Shown here in pieces: positions 35,249 through 46,775 of a stretch of DNA of 56,564 nt. The stretch comes from a virus. The notes beneath the pieces were generated by a model. That model had not been told where the DNA came from, searched no databases, and saw only the letters and a list, made by a program, of their open reading frames with translations. Both the position numbers and the translations under genes were made by a program. How positions within the stretch are numbered: position 1 is the first letter of the stretch; the number at the start of each line of letters is the position of its first letter. The stretch is taken from positions 1 through 56,564 of the IMG/VR virus record IMGVR_UViG_3300008119_000546; one strand, given 5' to 3'.

Positions 35249-36361
35249 TTAGATCTCTTCTAGTGCTTTAACTCTCGCTGTAAGCTCTTGTACTGCTTTA
35301 ATTAATGGAGCAATAAATTGGTCGTATCTAAGTCCCTGCATAGAGTCTTCTTCTAACATATCCATTTTTACCCAGCCTGCAAAATCTGCAACTCCAGACT
35401 CATCTAAAGCTGTTTTTACTTCTTGTGCAATAAGTCCATAGTGGGTTCTTGATCCAGGAATTGAAACAATATCTCCGTCTACTATTTCTTTGCCGCCTTC
35501 AATAAACTTATAGCTTACTGGATTTAATTCATTTATAAAATTAAGGCCTAGCTGAGATGGTGCAATTTCAGTTTTTAATCTTTGATCTGACGTATTGATA
35601 GTTCCAGTGTTAGAGTATATTGTTTTCCAAAATCTGTTTGATGTAACTCCATTTGGTGTATCTGTTGGCTGCCCTAAACTATAAAGGTTATTTGCCAAAG
35701 GATACCAGTTAGAGTTTACGCCAAACCCAGTTGAGGTTGGTATGTTTAAACTTATTGTTGTTGGCACTGGATCTATAGTTGCGCTTGATCCAGGAATTCC
35801 TTGTGGTCCAGTGGCACCTGTGGCACCAGTTGCTCCTCTTGGAATTGTAAATGCAAAAACTGCTGCTGTACTTGTGCCAGTGTTTGTAACTGAAGCATTT
35901 GTTCCAGCTGCACCAGTTGTAGTCGTTCCAACCGCAAGCGTGGTAGGACCCTGCGGGCCAACTGGACCCTGTATTCCTTGTGGGCCTTCTGGCAAAACTA
36001 AATTTAATGTCTGTGTAGGTGAGGTTCCAGTAATTGTTGCTGATGCTGTACCGCCCTGTGCTACAGTTCCAATAGACAATACATTTGAAGGACCTGGACC
36101 GCCAATAATACCATCAATTCCTCTAGGCAAAGTTAGATTTAATATAGCTGCTGATGAGGTTCCAACATTTGTAACTGCTGCTGGAGTACTTGCGCTAACG
36201 GTAGTTACTGTACCTATTGCTAAGGTGCCTGAAGGGCCCTGTGGGCCTGGATTAGCAGCAATGAAGGTTGCAATGTCAGCACCAAGGTTTCCAAGGTCTC
36301 TAGGGACGTCTGGGGTGTCTGTATAGTCTGGAAATCTCCAGCCGTTTACTCCTGTGCTCAT
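35249..36361 (-). CDS. Collagen-like tail fibre with S74 chaperone
   Basis: 370 residues. Contains short Gly-X-Y collagen-like runs (GPQGPSG; GPQGIQGPVGPQGP; GATGATGATGPQGIPG) separated by beta modules with the repeated phrase LNLTLPRG / FAFTIPRG. From about residue 258 a Peptidase_S74 chaperone: SDQRLKTEI carries S-x2-R-x-K, then NPVSYKFIEGG, YGLIAQEVK and a terminal coiled coil (LIKAVQELTARVKALEE). Trimeric fibre expected, with self-cleavage. No Shine-Dalgarno precedes the ATG; TATAAT lies six bases upstream. It follows directly after the 2OG-oxygenase operon, whose enzymes could hydroxylate its prolines. Confidence 0.85.
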   Translation of the reverse strand: MSTGVNGWRFPDYTDTPDVPRDLGNLGADIATFIAANPGPQGPSGTLAIGTVTTVSASTPAAVTNVGTSSAAILNLTLPRGIDGIIGGPGPSNVLSIGTVAQGGTASATITGTSPTQTLNLVLPEGPQGIQGPVGPQGPTTLAVGTTTTGAAGTNASVTNTGTSTAAVFAFTIPRGATGATGATGPQGIPGSSATIDPVPTTISLNIPTSTGFGVNSNWYPLANNLYSLGQPTDTPNGVTSNRFWKTIYSNTGTINTSDQRLKTEIAPSQLGLNFINELNPVSYKFIEGGKEIVDGDIVSIPGSRTHYGLIAQEVKTALDESGVADFAGWVKMDMLEEDSMQGLRYDQFIAPLIKAVQELTARVKALEEI

Positions 36362-36381: not shown

Positions 36382-37032
36382 CTACTTAATATATACGTGT
36401 GCGGGGCTCATATATCTGGTGCCAGAAATAATTGGCTTTACTTCATGAATATATGGCTCCTGCGAAGGAAACATTATCATGCTTCCAGCTTTTGGCTTAA
36501 CGGTAACATTGTGATTTGGAAAGCTAATTTCTCCGCCTTCGTAGTCGTCGTTTATATATGCTACCAAAGAAAATGCTAGATCTGCATTACCATCTTGTCC
36601 GTCAAAATGTGGACCCATAGACTGTCCTTCATTCCAAGCCTTAATAGTGGTGTTATCTAAATTTAAATTATATTTACTTTTATCCAGCTTGTGTCCTTCT
36701 AGGTATCTATCGGTACACATTTCAAATGCCATTAGAAAGCTATTTGCTATATACAAAGTTTTTTTATCTACCATATCTGATCCAGTAGATTCTTTTAACT
36801 TAGATTTATTAATATTTTTTGTTTTTCCGTAAATTAATTCTTTGTCATCGCTTGCTGTCCAATTTTCCCATTTAGATATTCTAGAATAAGACTGTGGCTC
36901 TTCATCAATTTTGTCAATAAATACTTTTAGCTCTTCTGGAAAACTTAATGCATTTTCCCAGTACCAAATTTGTGGTCCAAGAACCTGAAGGTCAAACATT
37001 ATAAATTGTTTAAACTCAATATTGTTTTGCAT
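36382..37032 (-). CDS. 2OG-Fe(II) oxygenase 1 (prolyl-4-hydroxylase type)
   Basis: 216 residues. Double-stranded beta-helix dioxygenase using 2-oxoglutarate, O2 and Fe(II). Visible motifs: iron ligands in GPHFDGQ (His142, Asp144) and YIHEV (His196); Arg206 ten residues later (SGTRY) for the 2OG carboxylate; strand pair YINDDYEGGEISFP; PKAGSMIMFPS. Substrate unknown: a hydroxylated prolyl residue on a fibre is my inference. TAATG coupling with the next oxygenase upstream. Confidence 0.9.
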   Translation of the reverse strand: MQNNIEFKQFIMFDLQVLGPQIWYWENALSFPEELKVFIDKIDEEPQSYSRISKWENWTASDDKELIYGKTKNINKSKLKESTGSDMVDKKTLYIANSFLMAFEMCTDRYLEGHKLDKSKYNLNLDNTTIKAWNEGQSMGPHFDGQDGNADLAFSLVAYINDDYEGGEISFPNHNVTVKPKAGSMIMFPSQEPYIHEVKPIISGTRYMSPAHVYIK

Positions 37033-37781
37033 TATTCTACTTCCTTGGCTGAATATTTTTCTCCAGATGCAGTAATTCTTAGTCCTTGGTTACGAATATC
37101 TTCCCACTCGGTAGCCTCTACCTTTTGATACGCTCTTACTTCAGCAAGCTCTTCTGCCCACTTATCTCTTACCTCTTGTGGGTAATCTGATTCTTCTCTG
37201 TCATCCCAAAAAGATCCGAGTGTATATCGAATTGCTTTCTTTACTGTTGTAACTTCGTGAGTGTTTTCAAATCCTCCAGCAAATGTGGCCATGCTTCCAG
37301 TCTTTGGAACAATCGTTAGCCCATGCTTAAAATTTAAAACTCCATCTTCAAAGTCATCATTTAAGTAAATAAATGTTGCGTATCTGCTTCTTGTAAATGC
37401 ACCAGAGTTGCCTTCATTATCTGTGTTATCTGAATGCATATTTGCAAATGCGCCAGGTGCCCATCTCTGAGAGTGCCAACTAATTTGTGACATTTGCTCA
37501 GGATTTTTACCAGCCATATCGGCTGTTGCGTCAATTACTCTTTGTCTTAGTACTTGAAAAAAATCTCCTGGCAATCCGCAAGCAATTGTATCTGGATCAT
37601 TGACTTCTGGCATACCAGATGAATATGATTCATAGAAAGAAATAGGCATCCACTTCAATTCTTCTTTTTGCATTTTTATGTCTAGGACTTTAATAATTGC
37701 AGCGCACTCTTCTGGAGTCAAGAAATTGTCATATACAACTATATCTGATTTATGTCTTGTTACAACCATGTCTCTTTCCAT
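37032..37781 (-). CDS. 2OG-Fe(II) oxygenase 2, divergent
   Basis: 249 residues. Ligands: NMHSDNT (His116, Asp118), NTHEV (His175) and Arg185 at +10 (KKAIRY). The strand motif is YLNDDFEDGVLNFK, and PKTGSMATFAGG replaces the FPS found in the others, so this is the most divergent member, perhaps with another substrate. A charged C-terminal extension of about 55 residues follows the core. TAATG overlaps on both sides. Confidence 0.88.
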   Translation of the reverse strand: MERDMVVTRHKSDIVVYDNFLTPEECAAIIKVLDIKMQKEELKWMPISFYESYSSGMPEVNDPDTIACGLPGDFFQVLRQRVIDATADMAGKNPEQMSQISWHSQRWAPGAFANMHSDNTDNEGNSGAFTRSRYATFIYLNDDFEDGVLNFKHGLTIVPKTGSMATFAGGFENTHEVTTVKKAIRYTLGSFWDDREESDYPQEVRDKWAEELAEVRAYQKVEATEWEDIRNQGLRITASGEKYSAKEVE

Positions 37782-38596
37782 TATTTATTTTCTCCCTTTA
37801 TATTAGCAAGATCATCGTAAAATGTTGGTACACCATTTTCCAAATATCTCATGTTTCTTGGGTCTTCGTGCTTAATTCTTTCCGCTTCCATCTGAGCCCA
37901 CTTATATGCCCCATAAGTCTTTTGGTTGTTTAACCATTCTTTTGTTCCATCAAATGGTGTCATAACAAAGTTTCTTACAAAGAACTTCTCGTTATTTTCA
38001 ATAGTTTTAACTCCGTGATAATATGGCTCTGTAGATGGGAAAACTAAAATATCTCCAGAAACTGGCTTATGATTAATAAGCTTACCGTCTACAAAAAATT
38101 CAATGTCACCACCATCGTAGTCATCATTTATATACATTGTACAAGTTATAAAAAATTTGTCTCCAGGCATATCTTTTTGAGATGTTATATGATCTGTATG
38201 ATACTGCATTGTCATTTTGTTATCTAAAGTGTTAATTTGTGGATTATACTTTGAGTATGAGCATCCGCTAAATCTCCAGCCATCTGGCAAACTAATGTTA
38301 TGTCTTTCTACGTAGTCCATTAAAACTGCATGATAGGCAGCCTCAACCTCTTCTACAAAATTCTTTTCTTTAATAAACATTTCATCTGACTGCTGATCAT
38401 CAGATATCTCCATTGGATTCTTTTTTTGTGTATAAGTGCCAAAGTGTGCCCATGGATCCCATGTCTTTAAAAAATGCTTGCCCTCTGAAGTTCTTTCAGA
38501 CTCTTTCATTACTTCGTACATTTTTTGTGGATCAGTAAGAACATCTCTGTAAACTTCTACATTTGGATAAATCTCTATATAATTTAAGTTACTCAT
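37781..38596 (-). CDS. 2OG-Fe(II) oxygenase 3
   Basis: 271 residues. Ligands: QYHTDH (His133, Asp135), YYHGV (His194). The residue at +10, which anchors 2-oxoglutarate, is Lys204 rather than Arg; collagen-type prolyl 4-hydroxylases also use Lys here. YINDDYDGGDIEFF and SGDILVFPST match its paralogues. A 60-residue C-terminal extension is rich in Trp/Tyr and Lys (GAYKWAQMEAERIKH). Start overlaps the previous stop by four bases (ATGA). Confidence 0.9.
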   Translation of the reverse strand: MSNLNYIEIYPNVEVYRDVLTDPQKMYEVMKESERTSEGKHFLKTWDPWAHFGTYTQKKNPMEISDDQQSDEMFIKEKNFVEEVEAAYHAVLMDYVERHNISLPDGWRFSGCSYSKYNPQINTLDNKMTMQYHTDHITSQKDMPGDKFFITCTMYINDDYDGGDIEFFVDGKLINHKPVSGDILVFPSTEPYYHGVKTIENNEKFFVRNFVMTPFDGTKEWLNNQKTYGAYKWAQMEAERIKHEDPRNMRYLENGVPTFYDDLANIKGENK

Positions 38597-39267
38597 GGTT
38601 GTCTGTCTCCTGTATGTTTAGATATCGTCCAAAAGAATGGAGATGTAAATCGGTTGCCAGATTTTACTGGCCTTACCCCGTGAGTATAATTCATGTCTCC
38701 TGGGAAAAAATATGCTGCTCCTGCTACTGGCTGAAATTCAATTCCGTGTTGTGGGAAATAAAGTTCTCCACCTTCATAATCATCGTTAAAATAAAAAAGG
38801 CCAGCTAAATCGTACCACGGGAAATCATTTGGTCTTCCCTTTTCTGGACCAGAATGAAATTCTTTATCTGCGTGAGGCTCTTGTCTTGCACCTATTGGCC
38901 ACTTAACAATTGCTGGACCAGTTTCTTTTGCGTCAACATCAAAAAATTTATCTACTTCAATCTTTAGTCTGTCAATCATGCTATAAATAAGTTCTAGTAT
39001 GCTGGGATCTGAAGCTCGCAATGAGTTCATTGTACATACTCTATCTTCCCAAATTTTGTGATCATACAAGACTAGTCCGTCTTCATCAACGTGAGTTTCA
39101 GTTACATCCCAAATTTTATTAGATAAGGCAAAGTCCATCAATCTTTTTCTTTCTTCTAATGAAAGAAAGTCTCTTATTTCAACAATGTTGTCTATGGAGT
39201 TGCCAAAAAAACCAGAGGGTGTAATAGATACTGGTCTGTTGTCATGCCATTCGTTTTGCGGTTTCAT
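38593..39267 (-). CDS. 2OG-Fe(II) oxygenase 4
   Basis: 224 residues. Ligands: EPHADKE (His132, Asp134), YTHGV (His196), Arg206 at +10 (SGNRF). YFNDDYEGGELYFP and VAGAAYFFPGD are close to oxygenases 1 and 5, indicating tandem duplication followed by divergence. The N-terminal ~110 residues are mixed helices typical of the substrate-binding side of prolyl hydroxylases. GGGGAAGAAG upstream serves as ribosome-binding site. Confidence 0.9.
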   Translation of the reverse strand: MKPQNEWHDNRPVSITPSGFFGNSIDNIVEIRDFLSLEERKRLMDFALSNKIWDVTETHVDEDGLVLYDHKIWEDRVCTMNSLRASDPSILELIYSMIDRLKIEVDKFFDVDAKETGPAIVKWPIGARQEPHADKEFHSGPEKGRPNDFPWYDLAGLFYFNDDYEGGELYFPQHGIEFQPVAGAAYFFPGDMNYTHGVRPVKSGNRFTSPFFWTISKHTGDRQP

Positions 39268-39318
39268 TTTATCTTCTTCCCCTGGTAATTAATTTTACCA
39301 TATTGTGGTTTATAATCT

Positions 39319-40029
39319 TTATTTGTCTTTATTTTCTTTATTTACAACTAGCCTTAATGCCTTTACCTGATGCTTGCCTATAGCATTTTTTAAATGGTCT
39401 ACGGCATCTCTGTAAAAATTTGACCATACCCCAGATCTATTTAAATCATAAATTATCTCAGAGTATTTGTCTGAATCAAACTGGCTGGCTGGCATAGTAG
39501 ACATTGACTCAAAATTTATCTCAGAGCCTTGAAGGGATGCTAGATCAATTGGTAGAATGGCTATTATTGGGGTTCCAGCCTCTATTGTTAGAATTTCATT
39601 TGGCTTAGTAATCATCCAGGCCACTGGGATTTCTCCCCTAAAAAAAGAAGTGCTGATTAATGTTGTAAATGGTACAGCGCCATCAAAAAATAAATTTGGG
39701 ACTGGCATAGAAAGCATGCTTAAATTATCTTCTGTTTTAAACATAAGCCCAGTGTTAAAACTTATAGTCCCGTTAGCTCTACCTGCATATGCATATTTTT
39801 CTCCAGATAAAATTTTAACATGATCTGGGCTAGCATCGCTTACTCCGTCCCAAATAAAGCTTATATCCTCTGGGAATGATATTGACCAGCCAAGCTGATT
39901 AGTTAGTCCTACTGGAAAACACTTGTATGCGTGAGCTTCCCAAGTATTATCCATCCATTTTCTTTTTATAGAAAGCGGTTCTACTATTCCGTAACCATCT
40001 CTTATCTCCCAAGCCTTTATGTTATGCAT
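39319..40029 (-). CDS. DUF6065-like protein in the oxygenase operon
   Basis: 236 residues. KCFPVGLTNQLGWSISFPED, SFIWDGVSD, FNTGLMFKTEDNL, PNLFFDGAVPFTTLI and EAGTPIIAILPIDL follow the pattern I know as DUF6065: a beta-rich protein with conserved N-Q-x-G-W and W-D/N-G. Function unknown. It overlaps the first oxygenase gene by eight bases and lies amid five oxygenases, so it probably acts in the same pathway, for instance as substrate adaptor or lectin-like subunit. That role is inferred. Confidence 0.7.
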   Translation of the reverse strand: MHNIKAWEIRDGYGIVEPLSIKRKWMDNTWEAHAYKCFPVGLTNQLGWSISFPEDISFIWDGVSDASPDHVKILSGEKYAYAGRANGTISFNTGLMFKTEDNLSMLSMPVPNLFFDGAVPFTTLISTSFFRGEIPVAWMITKPNEILTIEAGTPIIAILPIDLASLQGSEINFESMSTMPASQFDSDKYSEIIYDLNRSGVWSNFYRDAVDHLKNAIGKHQVKALRLVVNKENKDK

Positions 40030-40735
40030 AGGGGTTTTTGCCAGTCTTAGCGTCTTCCTCTACCCACTTTGATCTCATCTCCATAAATTCTTGTCTGTGC
40101 TGATGATCGTTATAGTCTAACATTGTAACAATTGAAAATTTCATTCCAGATTTTACTGGCATAGCTCTATGAGAAAACAAATATGTTGATGGGAAAATGT
40201 ATAGGTCTCCAGCTTGTGGTTTAATATCAAGACCTATTTTTGGAAAATATAAATTTCCGCCTTCGTACTCATCATTAACATATGCTACAAGAGAAACTGT
40301 GGCACTGTAAGAAAATCCATGGTCTGCGTGTTCTTGAAAATGCTGTCCTTCTCCATAACGAATACAGTTCATAACTTCCCAGTAATTCATTTTTACATTA
40401 TGCTTTGCACAATAATCTTCTACTGCTGGATTTTGAGATTTTTTTAGATCTTGCCACAAACTAGAAACTAGTTTTTCTGTTTCTGTTCTAGGATTTGGTA
40501 TGTCGCCAACCTTAATATCTTCACAGTCTCTGTAGTCTGGCCTTTTTTCGCTATAGCCAACAAATCCAAAGGTCCAAAGAAATCTGGAATCGTTGTCTTT
40601 AATTGCTGACTCGCCTATTTCATTAAGTCTTTCAATAACATTTAATTCTTTTTTAATTGCGTTTCTATATACCCAAACGCCTGGGAAAAGCTCTTCTTTT
40701 GAAGAAAATTTATATTTATCATTTATGTTATCCAT
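40022..40735 (-). CDS. 2OG-Fe(II) oxygenase 5, first gene of the operon
   Basis: 237 residues. Ligands: QEHADHG (His136, Asp138), FSHRA (His189), and Lys199 at +10 (SGMKF) instead of Arg. YVNDEYEGGNLYFP and PQAGDLYIFPST agree with its paralogues. C-terminal extension is charged (EMRSKWVEEDAK). No Shine-Dalgarno; the TATAAT of a near-consensus promoter ends seven bases before the ATG, so translation is probably leaderless. Confidence 0.9.
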   Translation of the reverse strand: MDNINDKYKFSSKEELFPGVWVYRNAIKKELNVIERLNEIGESAIKDNDSRFLWTFGFVGYSEKRPDYRDCEDIKVGDIPNPRTETEKLVSSLWQDLKKSQNPAVEDYCAKHNVKMNYWEVMNCIRYGEGQHFQEHADHGFSYSATVSLVAYVNDEYEGGNLYFPKIGLDIKPQAGDLYIFPSTYLFSHRAMPVKSGMKFSIVTMLDYNDHQHRQEFMEMRSKWVEEDAKTGKNPYA

Positions 40736-40821: not shown

Positions 40822-42198
40822 TTAGTTTCTAATTATAAACGATTGTCCTAGGACTAATACGTCTGGGTCGGTAAAGAATCTATAAACTATAGAGCTTACA
40901 TCTACTGTATCGACTGACTCTACTGCCAGATACTTAATTTCTTCATCAGATCTGTAAACTATCTGATCTCCAATTTGTATGCCCGCTGGGGTAACAAATT
41001 TATAAGTATTTCCTCTGAGTGCTAGAATTTCTTCTTGCAAAGAGAATCTTGCGGTATCGTCATTGTTAATCATAAATGTTTCATTCTGCAATGTAGCTTG
41101 TATTGAGAATATCTTTGACTCAATTACTTTTGCGTTACCAAGATGTGTATCTTCCCAAGTTGCTGGGTCGTACTCACCTTCATTTGGCAATTTATCAAAT
41201 GACAAGCTTATTAGCATATCTCCAATTTTTATATCTTTAGCCATCTTATAGCCTTCAGATGTAAGTATTAAAGTGTCTTCATTTATGCAACCGAATCTTG
41301 GTGGGGCAAAGAACCCTGGTGGGAAGAACGGTGGGAAGAATGGTGGGAAGAACGGTGGGAAGAATGGTGGGAAGAACGGTGGGAAGAACGGTGGGAAGAA
41401 CGGTGGTGAGAAGAAGCTTGGTGGGAAGAATGGTGGTGAGAAGAAGCTTGGTGGGAAGAATGGTGGTGAGAAGAAGCTTGGTGGAAAGAACGGTGGTGAG
41501 AAGAAGCTTGGTGGAAAGAACGGTGGTGAGAAAAAGCTTGGTGGGAAGAACGGTGGGGCAAAGAACCCTGGTGGGAAGAATGGTGGGAAGAACGGTGCTT
41601 GTGTAGTAACGGTATTAGTGTTATTAGAAGCAGCTGATCTTCCGTTTGCATTGTCTGCATATACGTTATAATACTGAGAAGTATTGGCGGCATCATTAAT
41701 AGATGTTGATGTAGAAGCTGTATTACCAGATGTTCCATCGTTTCCAGCTACATAATAATTTGTTATTGCTGATCCACCATTATTTGGAGCTGTCCATTGG
41801 ACTGTATTTGCATTAACTCCTGCAGTTGCAGATGCAGCACTTGGCGCATCTGGTACTGTTGTGACTGTCACAGAATTAGATGCTGCAGATGGAGCTGATG
41901 TTCCTTCTGCATTTGTTGCTGTTACTGTAATAGTTGTAACTGCACCTACACCAAAACCAGTTATAGTTAATGGTGAAGATGATCCTGTTGCTGTGTGAGT
42001 AGTATTGTGTACGCTACAAAAACCAGATGCTGTAAATGATGTTGCGGCATAAGGCCCTTCAGGTGTAAACGTTACTGTAACTGCACCATTGCCATATGGG
42101 CGATTTGTGCCAACGTTTGTAGCTGTTCCTATTGTTGGTGCATAAGGGGCTAAAAAGTCATTTGATGACTGGCTCATTCTACCTACTTGTTTTGACAT
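40822..42198 (-). CDS. FN3 / Phe-Pro repeat / Hint-domain structural protein
   Basis: 458 residues. Two fibronectin-like beta-sandwiches (about 20-115 and 116-200: TVPDAPSAASATAG, NNGGSAITNYYVAGNDG). Then about 100 residues built only of FFPP, SFFSPP and GFFAPP units (202-302). Finally a Hint (hedgehog/intein) domain from Gly303-Cys304: GCINEDTLILTSEGYK, DIKIGDMLIS, IQIGDQIVY, ending FIIRN with terminal Asn. The expected block B TxxH reads TARF, lacking His, so autoprocessing may be altered or lost. Secreted or particle-associated fibre by context. Shine-Dalgarno GGGAGA. It immediately precedes the oxygenase operon. Confidence 0.8.
   Translation of the reverse strand: MSKQVGRMSQSSNDFLAPYAPTIGTATNVGTNRPYGNGAVTVTFTPEGPYAATSFTASGFCSVHNTTHTATGSSSPLTITGFGVGAVTTITVTATNAEGTSAPSAASNSVTVTTVPDAPSAASATAGVNANTVQWTAPNNGGSAITNYYVAGNDGTSGNTASTSTSINDAANTSQYYNVYADNANGRSAASNNTNTVTTQAPFFPPFFPPGFFAPPFFPPSFFSPPFFPPSFFSPPFFPPSFFSPPFFPPSFFSPPFFPPSFFSPPFFPPFFPPFFPPFFPPFFPPFFPPFFPPGFFAPPRFGCINEDTLILTSEGYKMAKDIKIGDMLISLSFDKLPNEGEYDPATWEDTHLGNAKVIESKIFSIQATLQNETFMINNDDTARFSLQEEILALRGNTYKFVTPAGIQIGDQIVYRSDEEIKYLAVESVDTVDVSSIVYRFFTDPDVLVLGQSFIIRN
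41293..41596 (-). repeat. Tandem repeat encoding FFPP/SFFSPP units
   Basis: On the plus strand the motif GGTGGGAAGAA(C/T) recurs. The centre holds five 30-bp units (10 codons, PPFFPPSFFS), flanked on one side by about seven 12-bp FFPP units and on both ends by GFFAPP. The units differ by a few silent or near-silent changes, which shows old, ongoing expansion rather than a very recent duplication. Confidence 0.95.
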
Positions 42199-42219: not shown

Positions 42220-44817
42220 TTACGCTGAAAGGTCTCCGAAGACCAACCATCCGCTTGAAATTTTTAATGCTGTTACAACTGAATTTGTTGTTCTGAACTT
42301 TAATCCTGGAGTTCCTACAACGCCGTTTGTTGAAGCAAATGATGCGCCAGTTCCAGTCTGTTGCCAGAAATCAATTGATTGTCCCATTGAATATCCTGTT
42401 GCAGGAAGAGTAACTTGCTGAGCTCCAGTTAAAGCTACAAATTTATCTTGTGAATTTAATGGAAGCACATCGCCAGCTGCAAGCCCAGTAAACTCTGTGA
42501 TAGAGGGAACTCCAGCTCGTGTCTGTGTTCCATCTGAGAACGCAATTCCTGCTGCTGCAACTGTTACTGTTCCAGTAAATGTTGGGCTAGCGATTGGTGC
42601 TTTTAATGCAACGCTAGATGTTATAGTTCCTGCAAAGTTGGCGTCATCACCAAGTGCTGCTGCAAGTTCATCTAGTGTATTAAGTGCTGCTGGGGCTGCT
42701 GCAATTACTGCATTTACCTGAGCTGTTGCATCTGCAATAGCTTCTGACTTAGCAGTTGCAATTGCAGAGTTACGACCTGAAACCTCTGTTGAAATTGCAC
42801 CTGAAAGTGCTGCTGCTGCTGTGGCTTCTGCTGCTGCTTGAGCTGCGTTGGCCTTAGTTGTAGCGTCAGTTGCTGCTGCTGCAATTGCTTCTGACTTAGC
42901 AGTTGCTACTGTTGTAGCAGTTGCAAGTACTGAAGTATCTGCGATTCCGTGAATATTGGTTGTGTCTGATTCGTGATTTGAAAGTGCTGTTGCTGCTGTA
43001 CCAATTTGTGTCTGCACAGAAGATGTAATTCCGTCTAGGTATCCAAGTTCTGTTGCAGAAAGATTTCCAATTGATGTTGTATTTGGTAGAACTACTGTGC
43101 CTGTAAATGTTGGAGATGCAATTGGGGCCAGCGCTGTTAAAGATTCTCCTAGTCCATCAATTTTACTTTGAGCAATTGCTGCTGTAGGGCTAATGTCTGC
43201 GTTTACAATTGTTTCATTTGTAATTTTAGCTGATGTAATTGCGCCGTCTACAATCTTTGCTGTATCAACTGCGCCATCTGCAATCTTTGTACCATTTACT
43301 GCTAAATCGGCAATCTTTGCTGCAAGAACTGCTCCGTCAGCAATCTTTGCTGAAGTAACAGCTAGAACTGCAATCTCGTCTGTAGTTACTGCAGATGTTG
43401 CTATCTTTTCTGTTGTAACAGCATCTACTGCAATCTTTGCTGAAGTAACAGCTAGACCTGCAATCTCGTCTGCAGTTACTGCAGATGTTGCTATCTTTTC
43501 TGTTGTAACAGCATCTGTTGCAATCTTATCTGCGGTTACTGCGGATGTGGCTATTTTCGCTGTTGTAACAGCAAGTCCACTAATTTCATTTGTTCCAACT
43601 GAGTCATCACCTAAATGTGATTGAGCAATTGAGTTTGCTGCAATTTTGTCTGATGTAATTGCTCCGTTTGCAATCTTAGCATTAGTTACTGAGTTAGCTG
43701 CTATTTTGCCTTCTGTTATTGCATTTGCTGCAACCTTTGCTTCTGTAATAGCTCCATCTGTAATTTTAGATGATGCTACAGCATTTACTGCAATGTTTTC
43801 ACCTATAATTGATGAGCTTGGAAGAACTACTGTTCCAGTTAATGTTGGATTATTAAGAACAGATTCTGTTGATTCTAGTCTTCCAACTGCTATGGCGTCT
43901 AATGATCCTTGTGTAAAGTTAACTGTAGTTGTAGGCTGTGCTGTAACGCCCTTAAACAACTTCCACTTATCTTCTGAAGCGTCACGGACAAATCCTGTGT
44001 GATTAAATACTCCAGTATTATGTCCAACAACAAAGCCTAAGTCTAACATTCCAGACTGATTGCCTTTTGCCATTAAAAGAAGTGTATCTTGAACTTCAAA
44101 GTTTTCTGTATTAATAGTTGTCATTGTTCCATTAACCGCAAGGTTACCGCTGACAACAATGTCGTTGGCAAATATGTCGCCAGTTGTTGAAATATCAGTT
44201 GTAAGAGAGTTCAAAGGAAGTTCTGATTGTAAAATTTTAGTATTTGAATCTAATGAAGCAACTCCACCAGCAGTTCCTCTATCTCCTGTTTCTAGGTATC
44301 CTGAAAGAGAATTGCTTACTGTATTTACTGCAGCATCTGTGTAATCTTCTGCTGCGTCTCTTGCTGCCGCTGATTTTGTAGTAGCATCTGTTGCTGCTGC
44401 TGCGATTGCGGCTGCTTGTGCTGCGCTAGCCTTGGTTGTAGCGTCAGTTGCTGCTGCTGCGATTGCGGCTGCTTGTGCTGCGCTAGCCTTGGTTGTTGCT
44501 TCTGAAGTAGCAAATGTTTTAGTTGAAACTACATCTGTATCAACAGTTATAGTAATTGTATTTGCTCCATCGTTATAAGTCTTTGTTAGTCCTGCGCCCA
44601 TTGTTAAGGCTGTGTTTATAGCATCCTGGGAAATTTCACCAATTGCTACATCTGAGTTGTTGGCATATGCTAGGGCTGTCCATGTAGCTGTTCCATTACC
44701 AAACTTAAATAAATTAGTGTTTGTTTCAACACCCATTTCACCTGCAGCTAATATTGGATTTGCTGCGGTCCATTCAGAGGCTGTACCTCTTCTTACTTGA
44801 ATTCTTACTGTTGACAT
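42220..44817 (-). CDS. Long tail fibre with Mtd-like N-terminus and 12-residue repeats
   Basis: 865 residues. The first 50 (VRIQVRRGTASEWTAANPIL, AAGEMGVETNTNLFKFGNG) match the N-terminal anchoring module of phage tropism determinants and fibres. Then come an Ala/Thr coiled-coil cassette (ATTKASAAQAAAIAAAATD), a beta module (GNLAVNGTMTTINTENFEV, SEDKWKLFKGV), and about 20 copies of a 12-residue repeat of the form KIATSAVTTDEI between 340 and 560. A C-terminal beta domain (GYSMGQSIDFWQQTGTG) follows. Probable trimeric fibre. Ribosome-binding site AAGGGG, extended -10 promoter upstream. Confidence 0.82.
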   Translation of the reverse strand: MSTVRIQVRRGTASEWTAANPILAAGEMGVETNTNLFKFGNGTATWTALAYANNSDVAIGEISQDAINTALTMGAGLTKTYNDGANTITITVDTDVVSTKTFATSEATTKASAAQAAAIAAAATDATTKASAAQAAAIAAAATDATTKSAAARDAAEDYTDAAVNTVSNSLSGYLETGDRGTAGGVASLDSNTKILQSELPLNSLTTDISTTGDIFANDIVVSGNLAVNGTMTTINTENFEVQDTLLLMAKGNQSGMLDLGFVVGHNTGVFNHTGFVRDASEDKWKLFKGVTAQPTTTVNFTQGSLDAIAVGRLESTESVLNNPTLTGTVVLPSSSIIGENIAVNAVASSKITDGAITEAKVAANAITEGKIAANSVTNAKIANGAITSDKIAANSIAQSHLGDDSVGTNEISGLAVTTAKIATSAVTADKIATDAVTTEKIATSAVTADEIAGLAVTSAKIAVDAVTTEKIATSAVTTDEIAVLAVTSAKIADGAVLAAKIADLAVNGTKIADGAVDTAKIVDGAITSAKITNETIVNADISPTAAIAQSKIDGLGESLTALAPIASPTFTGTVVLPNTTSIGNLSATELGYLDGITSSVQTQIGTAATALSNHESDTTNIHGIADTSVLATATTVATAKSEAIAAAATDATTKANAAQAAAEATAAAALSGAISTEVSGRNSAIATAKSEAIADATAQVNAVIAAAPAALNTLDELAAALGDDANFAGTITSSVALKAPIASPTFTGTVTVAAAGIAFSDGTQTRAGVPSITEFTGLAAGDVLPLNSQDKFVALTGAQQVTLPATGYSMGQSIDFWQQTGTGASFASTNGVVGTPGLKFRTTNSVVTALKISSGWLVFGDLSA
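44391..44497 (-). repeat. 57-bp tandem duplication in the alanine-rich cassette
   Basis: A stretch of about 49 bases beginning at 44391 recurs almost exactly at 44448, a period of 57 bp (19 codons, AAATDATTKASAAQ-type heptads). In-frame duplication lengthens the coiled coil. Confidence 0.85.
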
Positions 44818-45307: not shown

Positions 45308-46423
45308 TTATTTAAGAAGTGTTCCAGATACTTTAACTGTTGAGTTATCTACTGGAGTTACTCTTATTCTTACATTTGAACCTGATACATCTGCTGTAAT
45401 AGTTCCTCTTGATCCATTAGTTCCGACAATTGCATATTCTGTAATTGCTACGTTATCTGATGCATCTAGTGTTATTAAAACTTCTGAAACTTCGTTATGT
45501 GTTGCGTTATCAATCTTAACAAGAACCTTAGCTGAGCGATAGTCTGCCTTTGCCCACTCATAAGCTGTTCCAGCAACTGATGCTGTTCCAGAAGATGAAG
45601 CCGCAAACTGCTTGGCTTGATCATTTACGTTTAACGCTGTAAATGCTGTTGTTCCTGCTTGCTGTGCTGCATTGGCTGCTGCTGCAGTTGCTTCCGCTGC
45701 TGCTTGAGCGGCGTTAGCCTTAGTTGTAGCGTCTGTTGCAGCGGCTGCTTGAGCGGCGTTAGCTTTAGTTGTAGCGTCAGCTGCTGCTGTCGCTACTGAT
45801 GCTGCGTCACCTGATACTCTAAGAGTGGCTTCTGCTGCTACCTTAGATGTTGCGTCAGCTGATGCTGTGGCTTCTGCTGCTGCTTGAGCTGCGTTGGCTT
45901 TTGATGTTGCATCTGCTGATGCATTTGAAGCGGCAGTTGCAAGACTTGCAGTAACATCGGCTGCATTAGCCTTTGTTCCCAAAGCTGTTGTAATAGTTGT
46001 TGTGTAATTAGCATCGTCATTAATTGCTGCTGCTAATTCATTTAATGTATTAAGAAGTGCTGGTGCACCGTCTACTAATGAATCTACTGCAGTTGAAATT
46101 GCTGTGTTACGATTTGAAACTTCTGTTGAAATTGCTGCTGTAAGTGCTGCTGCTGCAGTTGCTTCCGCTGCTGTCTTGGCTGCATTAGCCTTAGCTGTTG
46201 CATCTGCTGATGCATTTGAAGCGGCAGTTGCAAGACTTGCAGTAACATCGGCTGCATTAGCCTTTGTTCCCAAAGCTGTCTGTTGCTGCTGCAGAGATTG
46301 CTGCAGATTGTGCTGCATTAGCCTTTGAAGTAGCGTCTGTTGCTGCTGTGGCAACGGCTGCGTTGGCCTTGGTTGTTGCGTCTGCTGCTGCTGCAGTTTC
46401 AGCTGCTGTCTTAGCAGTTGCAA
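45308..46423 (-). CDS. Tail fibre, C-terminal part behind a +1 frame break
   Basis: The open frame begins at 46423, but its first ~50 codons (Gln/Leu-rich) are the upstream fibre read out of frame. Fibre-like sequence starts near 46275 with TALGTKANAADVTASLATAA. It consists of Ala/Thr-rich coiled coil and ends in a beta domain (SAKVLVKIDNATHNEVSEVL ... VRIRVTPVDNS) resembling the end of the 185-residue protein at 46804. The break lies exactly at the edge of an 84-bp direct repeat. With the upstream frame it would make one fibre of about 490 residues. Confidence 0.65.
   Translation of the reverse strand: MQLLRQQLKLQQQQTQQPRPTQPLPQQQQTLLQRLMQHNLQQSLQQQQTALGTKANAADVTASLATAASNASADATAKANAAKTAAEATAAAALTAAISTEVSNRNTAISTAVDSLVDGAPALLNTLNELAAAINDDANYTTTITTALGTKANAADVTASLATAASNASADATSKANAAQAAAEATASADATSKVAAEATLRVSGDAASVATAAADATTKANAAQAAAATDATTKANAAQAAAEATAAAANAAQQAGTTAFTALNVNDQAKQFAASSSGTASVAGTAYEWAKADYRSAKVLVKIDNATHNEVSEVLITLDASDNVAITEYAIVGTNGSRGTITADVSGSNVRIRVTPVDNSTVKVSGTLLK
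45905..45988 (-). repeat. 84-bp direct repeat, copy 1
   Basis: Identical to 46196-46279. Encodes TALGTKANAADVTASLATAA and onward in the fibre. Copy 1 is in frame with its surroundings on both sides. Confidence 0.9.
46196..46279 (-). repeat. 84-bp direct repeat, copy 2, at a frame break
   Basis: Identical to 45905-45988. On its upstream side (minus strand) the fibre reading frame shifts by +1 within a few bases of the repeat edge. Confidence 0.9.
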
Positions 46424-46775
46424 TATTTGTTGTTACTGTTCCAAGAAGTGCTGTGTCTGCTGATGTAGCAAATGCTTGGGCTGCAGATTGTGCTGCTGCT
46501 GATTTGTTAGTGGCATCTGTTGCAGCGGCTGCTTGAGCTGCTGAAGCTGATCCGTATGAATCAAATGTATTAGGCTTTACTGTAAGATTGCCTGCACCAT
46601 CGACTGCAAAGGTTCCTGCGTCTACAGATTTTACAAGAGTGGCACCGCCAACAAGGTTGAGAATATAAGCATTCCCGCCTGTTTCTGTAAGTATGTTTTG
46701 GCCATTGATTGTACCTGTAGTACCTTCAACTATAAGGCCCGATTTAATTCTAAAGTTTTTTGTTACTGTTGCCAT
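46257..46775 (-). CDS. Tail fibre, N-terminal part
   Basis: 172 residues. Shared N-terminal anchor (ATVTKNFRIKSGLIVEGTTG), a short beta part (NAYILNLVGGATLVKSVDAG), then Ala/Thr coiled coil (ATDATNKSAAAQSAAQAFA). It stops abnormally with SFGNKG after a +1 shift; the continuation is in the frame of the next entry. Removing one base (the A in CAGACAG near 46279) would restore the coiled-coil sequence. Ribosome-binding site GAGGAG. Confidence 0.7.
   Translation of the reverse strand: MATVTKNFRIKSGLIVEGTTGTINGQNILTETGGNAYILNLVGGATLVKSVDAGTFAVDGAGNLTVKPNTFDSYGSASAAQAAAATDATNKSAAAQSAAQAFATSADTALLGTVTTNIATAKTAAETAAAADATTKANAAVATAATDATSKANAAQSAAISAAATDSFGNKG

Follow-up and report, generated by a model that had tools for sequence, protein, structure and literature searches.

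A Phe/Pro repeat protein with a predicted C-terminal Hint fold beside a 2OG-Fe(II) oxygenase array in an uncultured aquatic phage

Results and Discussion

The window, by which we mean the whole stretch of 56,564 nucleotides analyzed here (IMG/VR virus record IMGVR_UViG_3300008119_000546), carries on its minus strand an open reading frame with the following parts and upstream neighbor.

40822..42198 (minus): open reading frame of 458 aa with FN3-like region, Phe/Pro repeat and C-terminal Hint-like domain
41611..41847 (minus): FN3 domain, residues 118-196 (PF00041, 20.2 bits, weak and below the Pfam cutoff)
41299..41595 (minus): Phe/Pro repeat, residues 202-300 (99 residues with 43 P, 42 F and 21 PP)
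40825..41289 (minus): Hint-like domain, residues 304-458 (AF2 model, Foldseek matches to BIL/Hedgehog/intein, profile against the PDB)
41287..41289 (minus): Cys304, the block A nucleophile position (Cys or Ser in 99 of the 99 repeat-derived Hint domains listed)
41032..41043 (minus): block B SLQE, residues 386-389, with Glu in place of His (alignment with His-bearing relatives)
40825..40836 (minus): block G end IIRN, residues 455-458 (Arg in place of the penultimate His, followed by the retained terminal Asn and the stop codon)
42220..44817 (minus): upstream fiber gene with Mtd_N domain (PF18454, E 1.4e-13)

The initial annotation had described an aromatic/proline repeat fiber whose last 155 residues begin at Gly-Cys, end at Asn and have no C-extein. 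The composition of residues 202-300 bears out the repeat, which is at the same time a tandem repeat in the DNA (a 30-base unit, 9.9 copies), and the translated ORF agrees on every other count, with the Hint-like domain running from Cys304, at the Gly303-Cys304 junction, to Asn458 and the stop codon. The FN3-repeat-Hint architecture is likewise supported, its FN3 element being one match below Pfam's cutoff and the only match, a weak one, that Pfam and PHROGs gave for the whole 458-aa protein. The literature searched, with subscription papers and preprints outside its scope, contained no description of this architecture. Since the Mtd_N fiber gene adjoins upstream, the ORF is placed in the tail-fiber region; from these neighbor genes only we infer a location of the protein in the virion. 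Farther upstream (45308-46775, minus strand), two overlapping ORFs in different frames each read as a portion of a single Ala-rich 'KANAAQAAAEA' repeat protein, which looks like a frameshift, either an assembly artifact or real. The capsid protein encoded in the window has Streptomyces phages among its best matches (56%), which suggests, without proving, an actinobacterial host.

The Hint Fold

Residues 304-458 were modeled with AF2 using 45 family members as alignment (pLDDT 93.7, pTM 0.86). Foldseek against the PDB returned the bacterial intein-like (BIL) domain 2lwy as the best match (E 8.8e-7), followed by Hedgehog 6tyy (E 4e-6) and 1at0 (E 1e-5) and then by many inteins, and the family profile matched 2lwy in the PDB at E 9.1e-10. 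Pfam assigned PF14890 Intein_splicing to 25 of the 45 relatives, Hint_2 to 13 and PT-HINT to 9. The window domain's own sequence matched no Pfam family and, used alone against the PDB, gave nothing meaningful, the family profile being required; its assignment therefore rests on family and fold. As judged from the predicted structure, the C-terminal 155 residues are a real Hint fold, as had been proposed.

The catalytic residues of this fold are only partly present. Position 1 holds Cys304, in keeping with the Cys, Ser or Thr nucleophile of the Hint-fold superfamily. The histidine of block B TxxH, the mark of catalytic inteins, BIL and Hog domains, is missing; this block had been read as TARF (382-385), which proves to be out of register, and alignment with His-bearing relatives gives SLQE, with Ser kept at B:7 and Glu in place of His at B:10. 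The C-terminal His-Asn of BIL type A domains and inteins is replaced by Arg457-Asn458-stop, and since Asn458 is the last residue the C-extein with its +1 nucleophile is absent. The protein stops at the Hint domain, which leaves no room for the sterol-recognition region of Hedgehog Hog domains, so that the suggested likeness to Hedgehog is one of fold only.

Relatives and Distribution

Searched directly against GenBank phages, the window protein matched Phage NCTB alone, whose BN7874_136 is 28% identical over window residues 303-433; the Hint domain of this phage (TEQH, HN), used as a query, led on to Erwinia and other phages. Phage NCTB also encodes a second small Hint-like ORF (L001:5483-5944, 'intein domain protein') directly after the Hint-ended tail protein. 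In IMG/VR the family is common: a Hint pattern found 72 loci, a few of them ordinary inteins in a helicase (L074, L075, L077 and L078), and repeat patterns gave samples of at least 120 stretches with FFxPP (PP) and at least 120 with the single-proline FGFxPF (SPF). Among the matches listed, a Hint domain is present in 72 of 119 PP and 95 of 120 SPF repeat proteins, and 45 PP repeat proteins end without one. Some of the latter (L090, L111, L121, L193 and others) carry short conserved tails (SRFIRSY, SFK/AFK, GFWD), and others small Cys-rich tails (SFCSFCPYGYYCSGGSCQL). Stand-alone Hint-like proteins of 164-175 aa, with a Cys near the N-terminus and neither upstream rod nor HN, were seen at L041:3959-4483 and L062:2281-2772, the former on the same contig as the full-length family member L042. 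A cellular origin of the PP repeat was rejected, the PP pattern having only five matches in cellular genomes, none of them with Hint, 2OG or DUF6065 neighbors. By sequence, then, the window protein belongs to a large class found in aquatic phages. Its relatives L002-L005 have Hint domains 92-100% identical to that of the window. Rod length varies freely and the Hint does not, as L003/L010 combine a Hint identical to the window's with a rod of only ~15 residues.

Active-Site Classes

The first loci had been found with Hint patterns containing Cys1, which makes conservation of Cys1 among them partly circular; to avoid this, Hint domains were taken through the repeat patterns only and dereplicated to 99. 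Among the matches listed, position 1 in these 99 domains is Cys in 68 and Ser in 31, and nothing else. This bears on the idea that fibers are cross-linked through the one conserved Cys, by inter-chain disulfides or other thiol chemistry. A lone Cys in otherwise Cys-free proteins would fit such a role, and the L010, L011 and L013 proteins indeed have no cysteine besides Cys1; the occurrence of Ser in its place in one third of the dereplicated set (among the matches listed) speaks against it, and we consider cross-linking highly improbable. A thioester between Cys and a Gln/Glu side chain, the linkage of pilus thioester domains, was weighed too, and no evidence for it was found.

Homologues that retain the block B His, for which the initial annotation had called, are abundant, and a Ser1/His/Asp sister class came to light besides (L209, L211, L241 and 28 others), standing behind FGFTPF-type and some PP repeats. 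All 31 Ser1 domains among the matches listed combine a terminal Asp with the block B His, and their C-terminal extensions, at 0 to 98 residues, are longer than those of the Cys1 domains. The latter mostly end in Asn with short extensions, and their block B residue (n = 68, among the matches listed) is Gln in 33, His in 20 and Glu in 15. Within the Glu class, again among the matches listed, Tyr replaces the penultimate His (Tyr-Asn) in 13 of 15 domains, and Phe occupies position -1 in 14 of 15, compared to 2 of 53 in the other Cys1 classes. On the tree the Glu class is a single clade (support 98/98) and an old one, its members being 25-84% identical. A single change (SH-aLRT 98) accounts for Ser1 on the tree, and one or two account for Glu; with the patterns nested in this way the Ser1/Cys1 and Glu/Phe(-1) correlations reflect few evolutionary events. 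Across the family the -1 residue may be G, A, S, V, F, T, K, R, P or Q; the Gly-Cys junction, described earlier as hedgehog-like, is present in the window but is a feature of its subclade.

In inteins that have lost the block B His, a bulky residue at -1, such as Phe, makes up for the loss in the N-S acyl shift (Friedel et al., PMC6333167), and the Glu class, from its residue pattern, looks like a natural case of such compensation. The window subclade is Glu-type and has Gly between Phe and Cys1 and an Arg-Asn end, so it is expected to be the weakest member. With Gly at -1, steric compensation is unavailable to the window Hint (PMC6333167). Autoprocessing at the repeat-Cys1 junction, as first suggested for this protein, is plausible across the family, given Cys or Ser in 99 of the 99 domains listed, and has its weakest case in the window copy, which by its residues is probably weak or inactive as an autoprocessing domain.

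Could the Hint domain be purely structural throughout the class, a C-terminal cap or assembly domain with Cys or Ser at position 1 as a relic? The block B His has been lost repeatedly (at least 3-4 forced changes on the tree), HN is also lost in some members (an IA-ending clade), and the -1 residue is unconstrained overall, even Pro being found. A cap, however, needs no nucleophile, and yet among the matches listed all 99 domains have Cys or Ser at position 1, every Ser1 is paired with His, and Asn or Asp is kept at the end of most members. We therefore regard a class-wide structural role as rather doubtful.

The converse possibility is that the window Hint is still active, with Cys1-Glu-Arg/Asn as an alternative active site, and that it cleaves or transfers the rod at Gly303-Cys304. 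The window Hint is under purifying selection, with a dN/dS of ~0.10 against L011 and ~0.17 against L013, and there is no sign of decay. These values, the invariant Cys1, sole cysteine in close relatives, and the terminal Asn kept in the window all favor continued activity, as do the existence of inteins naturally without block B His (PMC6333167) and an old Glu clade in which Tyr-Asn and Phe(-1) are mostly retained over an identity range of 25-84%. The window subclade, however, lacks the Phe(-1) seen in its relatives of the Glu class, its penultimate His has become Arg, there is no C-extein, and the His-less Ssp DnaB M86 intein with Gly(-1) is completely inactive (PMC6333167). On balance an active window Hint seems unlikely to us, if well worth keeping in mind.

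The Oxygenase Array

Directly 3' of the Phe/Pro gene, five PF13640 genes and a DUF6065 gene lie in tandem (36382-40735, minus strand).

40022..40735 (minus): 2OG-Fe(II) oxygenase, first gene downstream of the ORF (PF13640, E 1.3e-13)
39319..40029 (minus): DUF6065 protein (PF19541, E 2.4e-28)
38593..39267 (minus): 2OG-Fe(II) oxygenase (PF13640)
37781..38596 (minus): 2OG-Fe(II) oxygenase (PF13640)
37032..37781 (minus): 2OG-Fe(II) oxygenase (PF13640)
36382..37032 (minus): 2OG-Fe(II) oxygenase (PF13640)

All five oxygenases score above the PF13640 cutoff and have the HxD...H iron-ligand motif. In 18 family contigs, the density of PF13640 genes is 1.92 per 10 kb up to a distance of 12 kb from the Hint gene versus 0.34 elsewhere on these contigs. 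At least four lie nearby in 26 of 27 PP-type lineages of the Hint tree versus 0 of 13 others; where branches are well supported, this PP/oxygenase link comes down to only three independent contrasts, which all agree in direction. Among the matches listed, PP loci have 3.26 oxygenases per 10 kb versus 0.57 at SPF loci, and since Hint-less PP loci among these matches are also oxygenase-rich (2.68 per 10 kb), the association follows the diprolines and not the Hint. Loci were dereplicated greedily, single-linkage clustering having merged them into one large cluster; at three thresholds the densities for the matches listed are 2.6-3.3 (PP) versus 0.5-0.55 (SPF) per 10 kb. Placement is equally regular, with 348 of 364 oxygenases at the PP loci listed within 6 kb downstream and 351 of 364 on the same strand. 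DUF6065 accompanies 71 of 93 PP loci versus 0 of 99 SPF loci among the matches listed, and after dereplication of these it is found at PP loci only. Taken together, these data suggest that the oxygenases may hydroxylate the rods they accompany across freshwater phages, prolyl hydroxylation of the rod being the simplest reading.

PF13640 enzymes have many substrates, a point against this assignment, and the oxygenase/DUF6065 cassette might instead be unrelated to the fiber, acting for example in nucleotide or DNA modification and merely sharing a variable genome region. DUF6065 had no match in phage isolates; its AF2 model (pLDDT 91) shows a weak Foldseek resemblance to dUTPase (E 2.5e-4, TM 0.39 by query length), which keeps a nucleotide-related function in play, and 2OG enzymes are common in phages, for example in cyanophages (PMC12774648). 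Dependence of the association on PP in the repeat, rather than on the presence of a Hint or fiber gene, and the position of the arrays directly 3' of the PP gene on the same strand argue against an unrelated cassette, which we judge to be a less probable, though credible, alternative to rod hydroxylation.

Just past the array (35249-36361, minus strand) lies a gene for a collagen-like GPQ repeat fiber with a Peptidase_S74 chaperone domain, itself a possible second hydroxylation substrate. Collagen-like repeats as a shared oxygenase substrate were rejected, as they occur in only 3 of 93 PP loci among the matches listed, even though the window carries this one close by.

Proposed Role

Building on the fold, family, residue pattern, purifying selection and genomic association described above, we favor with some confidence the reading that the ORF encodes a fiber rod with a Hint cap, the latter attenuated here and the former prolyl-hydroxylated. 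The protein would be a tail-fiber-region component of an uncultured aquatic phage in which the FN3-like sequence bears a stiff aromatic/diproline rod ending in the Hint-fold domain. As part of the same reading, this domain would descend from an autoprocessing domain of BIL/intein type. In the wider family the Hint most likely makes a (thio)ester at the rod-Cys1 or rod-Ser1 junction, through which the rod could be released or handed over to a nucleophile. In the window subclade such activity is probably attenuated or lost (Glu for the block B His, Arg457, Gly(-1), no C-extein), and the domain would mainly cap the C-terminus as a folded unit with its thiol still in place; retention of the block G Asn, useless in a dead domain without C-extein, is at odds with this. 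The 2OG-Fe(II) oxygenases encoded immediately downstream likely have the rod diprolines as their substrate, and the product would be a prolyl-hydroxylated, extensin-like fiber. A bolder and distinctly speculative version, to which we would give little weight, sees extensin-like aquatic-phage fibers with 2OG-hydroxylated rods, in which a Hint with a Cys1/Asn or Ser1/Asp site attaches the rod covalently to a partner by way of its (thio)ester and a native Phe(-1) replaces the catalytic His in the Glu class.

The family around the window, with its oxygenase link, is more interesting than the window copy itself. It brings to light a widespread class of proteins in aquatic phages for which the isolates found are remote jumbo-phage relatives only, it includes natural variants of the Hint domain that seem to mirror an engineered solution, a bulky residue at -1 in place of the block B histidine, and it adds a Ser1/His/Asp sister group of Hint domains. 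For phage 2OG-Fe(II) oxygenase arrays next to fiber genes it predicts hydroxylation of diprolyl repeats, testable by mass spectrometry.

Comparison with Known Systems

BIL domains (C. thermocellum, 2lwy), the best match by both profile and fold, share with the window the Hint fold, Cys1 and the lack of a Cys, Ser or Thr +1 nucleophile, and in both cleavage rather than splicing would be expected; the window domain differs in having no block B His, no His-Asn and no C-extein, and in following a Phe/Pro rod in a phage fiber locus. The Hedgehog autoprocessing domain (1at0, 6tyy) likewise places a Hint fold at the protein C-terminus behind a Gly-Cys junction as in the window subclade, whereas the window has neither sterol-recognition region nor catalytic block B His, and the Gly is not conserved in its family. 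Loss of the block B His is shared with Tko CDC21-1-type inteins and the Ssp DnaB M86 G(-1)F/H73A mutant (PMC6333167), and Glu-class relatives carry Phe(-1) like the engineered compensation in Ssp DnaB M86 G(-1)F; compared to these His-less inteins (PMC6333167), the window has Gly(-1), and splicing is impossible. Phage NCTB BN7874_136 ('putative phage tail protein, contains intein domain') resembles the window in its C-terminal Hint in a tail-region protein and departs from it in having TEQH and HN and no aromatic/Pro rod. Finally, extensin-type hydroxyproline-rich proteins are alike by analogy, with diproline- and aromatic-rich repeats and P4H-type 2OG enzymes encoded alongside, although the window repeat is of phage origin, has Phe rather than Tyr, and would be hydroxylated by inference only.
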